33,170 nucleotides of DNA, from positions 1-33,170 of the forward strand of contig CAJAQT010000056.1 in NCBI GenBank assembly GCA_903944165.1, read 5' to 3'. The position numbers and the translations under genes are program-made. The notes beneath the pieces were generated by a model. The model searched no databases. It was not told the origin of the DNA and worked only from the letters and a program-made list of their open reading frames with translations. The DNA is from an uncultured Methylococcaceae bacterium (lineage in GTDB: Bacteria > Pseudomonadota > Gammaproteobacteria > Methylococcales > Methylomonadaceae). Of this stretch, positions 11,755 to 29,560 are shown piece by piece (position 1 is the stretch's first letter; each line of letters begins with the position of its first letter).

Positions 11755-11784
11755 AGAAAATTGATATAAATTTACCTTTGTTAA
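11748..11784. promoter_or_regulatory. Perfect 9-bp inverted repeat, candidate operator in divergent promoter region
   Basis: TTAACAAAG (11748-11756), 19-nt AT-rich spacer, CTTTGTTAA (11776-11784). Confidence 0.45.
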
Positions 11785-11855
11785 ATTTATTTATCACGTC
11801 TACTGCAACGCTCATGCAGGATTTAATCATACCCTCTACTCACGACGGAACTAAA

Positions 11856-12257
11856 ATGAAAAAAATTTTATTATTAGCCACTACTGTATTTTTTTCTCAG
11901 GCACTTTTTGCTGCGACGGATCATTTTTACCTTAAAGAAGGTAATCATATACAACACATGAAAATCACTAAATTAAATGACGAAGTGATTGTTACTGCCG
12001 ATGTGGATTTTGAACCCAATGCAAATGAATCTAACGCTAAAGCATGTGCTGGTGATATTGCTGGTCAAGCAAAATTTATCTCAGAAAACGAATTATTGAT
12101 GAAAAAACATGCCGAGTCTGCCGCCAGTTATTGTGAACTCACTATCAATCTGACTAATACTGGTGCCACGGTGAAACAATCTGAAGGCTGTAACTATTTT
12201 GCTACGGGTATCTGCCACTTTTCAACGGCAAACAACGAGTTAAAAAAAGTTAATTAA
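11856..12257 (+). CDS. Small secreted Cys-rich hypothetical protein
   Basis: The ATG at 11856 (inside the 11778 ORF) gives the signal peptide MKKILLLATTVFFSQALFA; mature part has four cysteines (KACAG, SYCEL, EGCNYF, GICHF). Confidence 0.7.
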   Translation: MKKILLLATTVFFSQALFAATDHFYLKEGNHIQHMKITKLNDEVIVTADVDFEPNANESNAKACAGDIAGQAKFISENELLMKKHAESAASYCELTINLTNTGATVKQSEGCNYFATGICHFSTANNELKKVN

Positions 12258-12343
12258 AGCTGTGTTTTTCAGCAGTTACGGTAATGAATATAAAACAAAA
12301 TAGGCTTAGCGTTATTATCACTGACTTAAGCTTTTATGTATCT

Positions 12344-12489
12344 TATTTCCTTGCTGGTTTGAGACTCTCCTTTTAGGAAGATTTGTTTAAAATTGATAAC
12401 GATGCGTTAACTCGTTATTTAAGACTAAGCGCAGCAATCCCCACTGACAACTAGCCGCCGGCGAATGTGGTCAGCGGGGATTGAAACAT
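12344..12489 (+). repeat. Intergenic structured element, copy 1 of 2
   Basis: Shares TATTTCCTTGCTGGTTTGA, TTGAYAACGAKGCGTTA, TCGTTATT, CTAAGC, CAATCC, CGGCGAATGT, GGTCAGCG and GGATTRAAACAT blocks with 28690-28848; terminal stem CAATCCCC/GGGGATTG. Confidence 0.75.
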
Positions 12490-27453: not shown

Positions 27454-28683
27454 ATGAATAAACCTAAAAAAGTCGCCCTTCTTACTGCTGGTGGTTTAGC
27501 CCCTTGCTTAAGCTCTGCTATTGGCAGCCTCATTGAACGCTACACAGAAATAGACCCAACTATCGAAATCATCTGCTACCGTAGTGGGTACAAAGGCTTA
27601 CTATTAGGTGACTCGTACACCGTAACACCTGAAATCCGTGCACAAGCCAGTTTATTGCATGGCTTTGGTGGCTCACCAATTGGCAATAGTCGCGTTAAAT
27701 TAACCAATGTTAACGACTGCATAAAACGCGGCTTAGTGACTGAAGGTCAAGACCCACAAAAAGTGGCGGCAGATCAACTTATCAAAGACGGTGTTGATAT
27801 TTTACACACTATTGGTGGTGATGATACGAATACCGCCGCCGCTGATTTAGCCGCTTTTTTAGCGAATAATGATTACGGCCTAACTGTTATTGGTCTACCA
27901 AAAACTGTTGATAACGATGTCTTTCCTATCAAACAATCCTTAGGCGCTTGGACGGCTGCGGAACAAGGTGCGCGCTACTTCTGGAATGTTGTTGCAGAAA
28001 ATAATGCCAACCCACGCATGCTTATTGTTCATGAAGTTATGGGGCGTAACTGTGGCTGGTTAACCGCAGCAACCGCAGTTGAATACCGTAAATTATTAGC
28101 GAAAACCGCGTGGCTACCCGAACTAGGTTTAAGCCGTGACAGCTACGAAGTACACGGTGTATTTATTCCTGAAATGGCGATTGATCTTAATGCTGAAGCA
28201 ACACGGTTACGCGCAGTCATGGATACTGTCGATTGCGTAAATATTTTTGTTTCTGAAGGTGCGGGCGTTGAAGCGATTGTTGCTGAAATGCAAGCAAAAG
28301 GACAAGATGTGCCACGCGATGCGTTTGGTCATTTAAAATTAGATGCCATCAATCCTGGCAAATGGTTTGGCGAACAATTTGCGGCCATGATTGGCGCAGA
28401 AAAAACCTTAGTCCAAAAATCTGGCTACTTTGCCCGTGCCTCTGCGGCAAATAGTGATGACATTCGCTTAATAAAATCTTGTGCTGACTTAGCCGTAGAA
28501 TGCGCACTGCGCAGAGAATCAGGCGTGATTGGTCATGATGAAGATCAGCACGGCATCTTACGCGCAATTGAGTTTCCACGTATCAAAGGTGGCAAGCCAT
28601 TCGACCTTAATACCCCATGGTTTACAGACGTCTTAACCGACATTGGGCAAGCCAAAGGCAATAAAATTGACGTCAGTCATTAA
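27454..28683 (+). CDS. pfp: Pyrophosphate-type 6-phosphofructokinase
   Basis: 409 aa: TIGGDDTNTAAADL and GLPKTVDNDV (PPi-type GGDD and PKTxDND motifs), MGRNCGWLTA. Confidence 0.92.
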   Translation: MNKPKKVALLTAGGLAPCLSSAIGSLIERYTEIDPTIEIICYRSGYKGLLLGDSYTVTPEIRAQASLLHGFGGSPIGNSRVKLTNVNDCIKRGLVTEGQDPQKVAADQLIKDGVDILHTIGGDDTNTAAADLAAFLANNDYGLTVIGLPKTVDNDVFPIKQSLGAWTAAEQGARYFWNVVAENNANPRMLIVHEVMGRNCGWLTAATAVEYRKLLAKTAWLPELGLSRDSYEVHGVFIPEMAIDLNAEATRLRAVMDTVDCVNIFVSEGAGVEAIVAEMQAKGQDVPRDAFGHLKLDAINPGKWFGEQFAAMIGAEKTLVQKSGYFARASAANSDDIRLIKSCADLAVECALRRESGVIGHDEDQHGILRAIEFPRIKGGKPFDLNTPWFTDVLTDIGQAKGNKIDVSH

Positions 28684-28689
28684 CCTCTC

Positions 28690-28848
28690 TATTTCCTTGC
28701 TGGTTTGAAACCGCTCTCTTTAGGGGTTCGTTCAAAGTTGACAACGAGGCGTTAGCATCGTTATTCTCTCAGCTAAGCTCGTTGTTTACGGCGAGACAAT
28801 CCATCGGCGAATGTCGCGTGCGGATGCGGTCAGCGTGGATTAAAACAT
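28690..28848 (+). repeat. Intergenic structured element, copy 2 of 2
   Basis: Same ordered sequence blocks as 12344-12489; hairpins TTTGAA(28704-28709)/TTCAAA(28731-28736), ACAACGAG(28741-28748)/CTCGTTGT(28778-28785), AATCCA(28798-28803)/TGGATT(28836-28841). Confidence 0.75.
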
Positions 28849-28857
28849 TATTGAGTA

Positions 28858-28900
28858 GCGTGATGCCTAAGTAAGCACTTCGTCACCACGCACTCTTTTT
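28858..28900 (+). terminator. Weak candidate terminator after the repeat element
   Basis: GCGTGATG / CACCACGC stem with one mismatch, then ACTCTTTTT. Confidence 0.35.
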
Positions 28901-28990: not shown

Positions 28991-29560
28991 ATGGCTATTT
29001 ATAGCACTAATGAATTTAAAGCTGGCCTAAAAGTCATGCTTGATAATGACCCTTGCGCAATTATCGACAATGAATTTGTCAAACCAGGCAAAGGACAGGC
29101 TTTTAATCGTGTCAAAATTAGAAACCTAAAAACTGGACGCGTCATTGAACGCACGTTTAAATCTGGCGAATCCTTAGAAGGTGCTGATGTTGTTGATGTC
29201 GAAATGCAATATCTTTACAACGATGGCGAGTTTAGACACTTTATGGTTCAAGATACTTTTGAACAATATCAAGCAGACAGCAAAATTGTTGGCGATGCCA
29301 ATTTATGGTTGAAAGATCAAGATTTTTGCACCATCACTTTATGGAACGACATGCCTTTAGCCGTCACCCCCGCTAATTTTGTTGAACTACAAATCATCGA
29401 AACCGACCCAGGCATTCGTGGTGATACCTCGGGCGGCGGCGGTAAACCAGCAAAACTTGAGACCGGTGCAGTGGTGCGCGTGCCTTTATTTGTTCAACAA
29501 GATGAAGTGATTAAAGTTGATACGCGTACAGCTGAATATATCTCACGAGTAAAAGACTAA
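28991..29560 (+). CDS. efp: Elongation factor P
   Basis: 189 aa: [23 protein letters not shown]; Lys34 (codon 29090-29092) at the EpmA target position. Confidence 0.97.

Follow-up and report, generated by a model that had tools for sequence, protein, structure and literature searches.

A repeat downstream of pfp represents an apparently undescribed mobile element family of methane-oxidising bacteria

The window analysed here is the whole stretch of 33,170 nucleotides from contig CAJAQT010000056.1 of an uncultured Methylococcaceae bacterium. A repeat (copy 2) lies between its genes pfp and efp, and a related repeat (copy 1) lies further upstream. A preliminary description of this DNA had placed the pfp stop at 28683 and TATTTCCTTGCTGGTTTGA, the first bases of copy 2, at 28690, and had drawn two pairings, ACAACGAG (28741-28748) with CTCGTTGT (28778-28785) and AACGA (28743-28747) with TCGTT (28758-28762). 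All of these positions are correct. The features are the following.

12342-12487, plus strand: copy 1 of the element, preceding a response-regulator gene (12542)
27454-28683, plus strand: pfp, PPi-dependent phosphofructokinase (NCBIfam E=3e-216)
28690-28848, plus strand (family orientation): copy 2 of the element (blastn, covariance model)
28690-28703, minus strand: left-end motif of copy 2, minus-strand reading CCAGCAAGGAAATA
28738-28767, plus strand: promoter-like TTGACA, 18 nt, TATTCT (10/12 match)
28740-28766, plus strand: dyad between -35 and -10, in the family AACGATGC...GCATCGTT, damaged to AACGAGGC here
28741-28785, plus strand: stem ACAACGAG/CTCGTTGT of the preliminary description, copy-specific and not conserved
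28778-28795, plus strand: hairpin H3, CTCGTTG/CGGCGAG with loop TTTA (fold, covariation)
28798-28841, plus strand: right-end hairpin, AATCCA (28798-28803)/TGGATT (28836-28841), with a diverged, shorter inner part in copy 2
28853-28900, plus strand: hairpin followed by T5, likely pfp terminator (folding z -2.1; shared with sister genome G008)
28991-29560, plus strand: efp, elongation factor P (ORF list, NCBIfam)

The repeat relation between the two copies, reported earlier from inspection, is real: blastn aligns copy 1 (12344-12419) with copy 2 at E=2e-11, far above chance, and a further member, located on a different contig, at E=1e-23. A family covariance model trained on 45 members, copy 2 included and copy 1 excluded, gives 82 bits for copy 2 and 32 bits for copy 1, with no other plausible full match in the window. 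The window has zero Rfam matches at the gathering score, and a literature search found no description of the element. Judged from its sequence, copy 2 is a worn, old member of a dispersed mobile family. The right-end stem of copy 1, AATCCCC/GGGGATT, is near-perfect with both sides changed relative to the family (inside ACTGAC...GTCAGC; z -3.1). At 11778-12257 the window also holds a 159-aa ORF without an NCBIfam match.

The element is about 145-195 bp long and occurs in Methylomonadaceae, a host family name inferred from the named carriers, and patchily in two distant gammaproteobacterial genomes. In its own genome blastn finds six places and other queries add C164 and C107, at least eight in all; single searches detect 5-6 copies each. 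The window copy as query recovers relatives from 5 of the 20 genomes searched in the genus, its own genome counted, and the consensus recovers them from 21 of 151 in the family. Among the named carriers are Methylobacter, Methylovulum, Methylocucumis oryzae Sn10-6, a Thiotrichaceae MAG and a marine gammaproteobacterial MAG. A model search of 369 gammaproteobacterial genomes gave matches in the window genome, G303 and G469 only, the latter two with 30-40 copies each. The copies of G303 are mostly 90-98% identical to the query and G112 has about 20 copies with >90% identity, so that movement was recent in both; the window genome carries old copies. The patchy host range suggests horizontal spread. 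The element was not matched in plasmids and phages; five pattern matches in viral contigs were chance hits without similarity to it. The contig-end matches in G144/G066 had suggested a right-end-only form, but they come from a single decayed copy whose gene context is repeated, or from a copy interrupted by an IS.

Younger copies start after TTCAT with CAAATTTCCTTGCTGG and end in GGATTGAAAC, usually followed by AT; the family consensus reads TTCAT/CAAATTTCCTTGCTGGTYTGAAACCTCC...GTGGATTGAAAC, again usually with AT next. The 84 distinct left flanks include 68 with TTCAT, and AT comes directly after the right end in 61 of 84 cases. Inspection of the ends (CAAATTTCC.../...GGATTGAAAC) revealed no terminal inverted repeats. 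The joined flanks of nine copies, most of them from G112, were run against relatives, and exact empty sites were found at five loci (hypC/hypD, feoA/feoB, L214, L228 and L264), four of them in several relatives each. TTCAT is already present in these empty sites, and the filled site equals the empty site plus element plus AT. In most copies, insertion is directly 3' of TTCAT and at most 2 bp (AT) remain beyond the element; the gained AT could be either duplicated target or the terminal bases of the element itself. The earlier idea of a mobile insert is supported by the empty sites, and that of a preferred insertion site by TTCAT, very often a gene start. Empty sites with target duplications had been named as the mark of a MITE; the sites are exact, but only the 2-bp AT is seen. 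At L220 and L271, which have no AT at the right, 11-13 bp of the right flank are gone; read on the gene strand, the lost bases, TAAGAGGTAAATG and GAGGAGCGTAC, are native Shine-Dalgarno regions. Element presence also differs among relatives at an SNF2-type gene.

At the pfp-efp locus, copy 2 ends in GGATTAAAAC at 28837-28846, then AT (copy 1 in GGGGATTGAAAC, then AT), and the left end it once had (TTCATC) has been lost or rearranged. Sister genome G008 lacks the element; its pfp stop is followed by 36 unrelated bases ending in GTTT. The sequence after these, CATTGTTGAGTAGC, agrees with the right flank of copy 2 (CATTATTGAGTAGC), and the unoccupied site reads TTTCAT/TGTTGAG, with a TTCAT target. 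The left flank is rearranged in the window genome, so this locus, taken by itself, falls short of a clean empty site. The left-end motif of copy 2 faces the 3' end of pfp and serves no start codon; elsewhere in the family the equivalent motif is a Shine-Dalgarno end abutting ATGAA.

TTCAT is commonly the reverse complement of the start context ATGAA. Among the 75 distinct copies with CAT at the left junction, 54 (72%) have a minus-strand gene that uses this CAT as its start codon, a start being counted if the ORF has >=60 codons. In the control, 72 of 230 intergenic TTCAT sites of the same loci are gene starts (31%, a figure that rests on an ORF-based gene mask, not on curated annotation); the enrichment has an odds ratio of 5.6 and p=1e-9. 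The genes started at junctions include dnaN, feoB, hypD, queA, hldE, dapC and nirB (names read from translations, no database). Read on the gene's strand, the abutting end gives CCAGCAAGGAAATTTG-ATG, in which a Shine-Dalgarno sequence stands at the usual distance from the ATG; it is of the strong AAGGA type in 50 of the 75 copies, moderate in 9 and weak or absent in 16. In the distant genomes G303 and G469 only 8 of 22 junctions are at start codons, without enrichment, so the ribosome-binding role may be confined to some lineages or be a side effect of how targets are chosen.

These counts could also come from a conventional MITE or dispersed repeat that prefers a short target, in which ribosome-binding site, promoter and RNA are incidental, ATGAA is a frequent start and intergenic insertion is tolerated. 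The high share of gene starts in the control and the missing enrichment in G303/G469 agree with this, and promoters are known in other bacterial MITEs (Correia elements, PMC4853749). The account is nevertheless unlikely: the Methylomonadaceae copies exceed the control strongly, most copies have a Shine-Dalgarno-like end, and the compensatory changes and one-sided G-U excess described below amount to selection on an RNA. The element is also set apart from classical MITEs, which have terminal inverted repeats and a multi-bp target duplication, by its missing terminal inverted repeats and the gain of at most 2 bp. The element shares with Correia elements that it is short, non-coding and dispersed, with promoter-like sequence; unlike them it has no terminal inverted repeats or TA duplication, and has a predicted oriented RNA gene and a ribosome-binding end. 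The Thiomargarita MITEs (hupL and dsrA families) of Beggiatoaceae are likewise dispersed mobile repeats in a gammaproteobacterium, but by their description they differ in carrying 10-bp direct plus 19-bp inverted repeats or TATAG ends (PMC4853749).

On the plus strand the family has a conserved promoter-like sequence, TTGACA-18-TATCCT, of which TTGACA and TAT..T are nearly invariant in 48 copies; for the 10/12 match of copy 2 about one is expected by chance in the stretch. In the more divergent L082 and L083 a TTGA-type -35 and a TACTAT-like box are kept and the palindrome between them is gone. A weakly conserved hairpin, H1, lies near the left end and a large covarying hairpin at the right end, where the right half fits two family-wide folds, one long hairpin or two hairpins with complementary loops. 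Compensatory changes occur in 22 of 41 proposed pairs; covariation is 0.237 against 0.166 in shuffled alignments, none of 500 shuffles reaches it, and slid controls are all lower. G-T far exceeds A-C cells on the plus strand in H3 (55:15), HP2 (56:8), the long inner (57:8) and the outer (24:7) parts, the exception being HP1 (31:37). The consensus folds at -14.5 kcal/mol on the plus strand versus -2.5 kcal/mol on the minus strand. With the G-T excess, this points to the plus strand as the one that probably acts as RNA. It is likely that an RNA is read into the right flank, because of the conserved promoter, the compensatory changes in the hairpins and the G-U excess; folding of single-stranded DNA is an alternative basis of the terminal hairpins.

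The two pairings of copy 2 had been read as mutually exclusive, and as either a possible switch-like fold or a result of divergence; a switch would here regulate pfp-efp. The 8-bp stem exists and is part of the predicted minimum-energy fold, but this fold is no better than shuffles (z -0.84), and the stem can form in one of 48 family members, copy 2 itself. It pairs the damaged left arm of the dyad with the left arm of H3, and is present because point changes turned AACGATGC into AACGAGGC in a worn copy. A switch is thus extremely improbable. A cis-acting regulatory leader, riboswitch-like or attenuator, that spread with its genes would agree with the strong structure and with the position in 5' UTRs and between co-directional genes (both flanking genes are directed toward the element's left in 48 of 81 copies). 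The adjoining genes (queA, feoB, hypD, dapC, hldE, nirB; read from translations) are unrelated in function, the empty sites are exact and the better-supported fold is opposite to the mRNA strand, which makes a leader very unlikely. The earlier suggestion of a 3'UTR-derived RNA is supported for the RNA, indirectly, through promoter, covariation and G-U excess, but not for its origin: the predicted RNA starts at a promoter of its own instead of being processed out of a 3'UTR. Since the hairpin at 28853-28900 also occurs in the element-free sister genome, the element sits between it and the pfp stop, and a transcript from the element's promoter would probably end before efp. Copy 2 would yield a short RNA that starts near 28775 and stops near 28900 at this terminator-like hairpin. 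The hairpin is absent from the list of a consensus terminator scan.

Among known systems, the IS200/IS605 family and its derived PATEs are similar in having no terminal inverted repeats and inserting 3' of a tetra- or pentanucleotide, here TTCAT. ISDra2 inserts 3' of TTGAT and IS608 of TTAC, and the TnpB reRNA runs from the right end into the flank (PMC7290912; PMC8612924). The element shares the insertion 3' of a fixed, pre-existing target and the subterminal hairpins at both ends, as well as a predicted right-end structured RNA reading into the flank as in ISDra2; promoter direction and fold would fit a TnpB reRNA with the flank as guide. It differs in having no tnpA or tnpB inside or linked, in the predicted internal promoter of its RNA, in the AT mostly present at the right, in a left end that can serve as a ribosome-binding site at start codons, and in reaching 30-40 copies per genome in some hosts. 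An autonomous Y1 relative sharing its ends was not found: 50 loci around Y1 matches (PF01797) in 14 genomes (G303 not among them) had no element ends, and G000 and G148 have element copies and no Y1 match. The element resembles IS200/IS605 and is not assigned to it. REP/REPIN sequences with TnpA-REP (RAYT) are also palindromic, non-autonomous, gammaproteobacterial and possibly moved by Y1 in trans; REPs are single short palindromes, whereas the element has 145-195 bp with a promoter-like sequence and a predicted RNA. Several weak Y1 matches in carrier genomes have RAYT-like length, and none of the Y1 loci examined is flanked by the element. The TnpB (PF07282) loci examined had no element ends; one TnpB neighbour, L237, was rejected on account of different ends. 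Partial copies in G112 and G303 were no autonomous form. Neither an autonomous copy nor a linked transposase was found among the Y1, TnpB and IS110 loci and the partial copies examined. The right end GTGGATTGAAAC resembles the end of a type I-C CRISPR repeat. A CRISPR link was discarded; Rfam CRISPR-repeat matches in related loci were all below threshold.

Site-specific recombination at a dinucleotide core, of the IS607 serine recombinase or IS110 bridge-RNA type, would treat AT as a 2-bp crossover core and the RNA as bridge-like. AT on both sides, the exact difference between filled and empty sites at five loci and the structured RNA speak for it. Specificity, however, is in the left flank only, with nothing conserved seen right of AT, and copies with TTCAT at the left and no AT at the right are common. 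No IS110 (PF01548) recombinase gene had related ends at the loci examined in six genomes. This mechanism is considered quite improbable.

The explanation preferred here, held with moderate confidence, is that copy 2 is an old, non-autonomous insertion of a family with a Shine-Dalgarno end and a flank-tailed RNA, moved by a TTCAT-recognising enzyme acting in trans. Insertions at start codons would be tolerated, or even favoured, since the element supplies a ribosome-binding site in place of the native one that it displaces. The promoter on the plus strand would drive a small RNA whose scaffold is fixed and whose 3' tail comes from the right flank, like the IS200/IS605 reRNA, and the enzyme would most simply be a Y1 (HUH) transposase. 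Against this explanation, AT is the right dinucleotide in only about half of the G303 copies read, a poor fit to a fixed right cleavage site. A start-codon-abutting ribosome-binding end joined with a promoter and a structured RNA is an unusual combination. If this explanation is right, a non-coding element escapes the usual cost of landing before a gene by bringing its own ribosome-binding site, and every insertion rewires the region where translation of a gene starts, bringing in a promoter and an antisense RNA as well. The element is abundant in some methanotrophs, and the exact empty sites in relatives are concrete loci for tests. A more speculative form, rather unlikely, sees a mobile 5' UTR in which TTCAT choice and ribosome-binding end co-evolved to home to start codons without silencing the gene, and in which the flank-tailed RNA guides a trans-acting nuclease or recombinase to keep or copy the element.

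Some variants were also observed. L004 and L014 are one insertion shared by G000 and G008 before a thioesterase-like gene; its H1 region is extended and TAAC flanks it left and right. At least one insertion is thus older than the split of these species. In the Methylovulum C21 lineage (L019, L036, L054) several copies have the same hairpin (GGCTGCTGGCTGCGGTAGC...) nested in them where the loop of H3 lies, which is a second small mobile repeat. In L056 a second left half, inverted, takes the place of the right half, so that ribosome-binding ends face outward on both sides. A separate, abundant palindromic repeat with a CAGACCTTCCAGGTTTTAAAAACCTGGAAGGTCT core is present at about 1714-1772 of L107 and in many g16 genomes, with many copies per genome.
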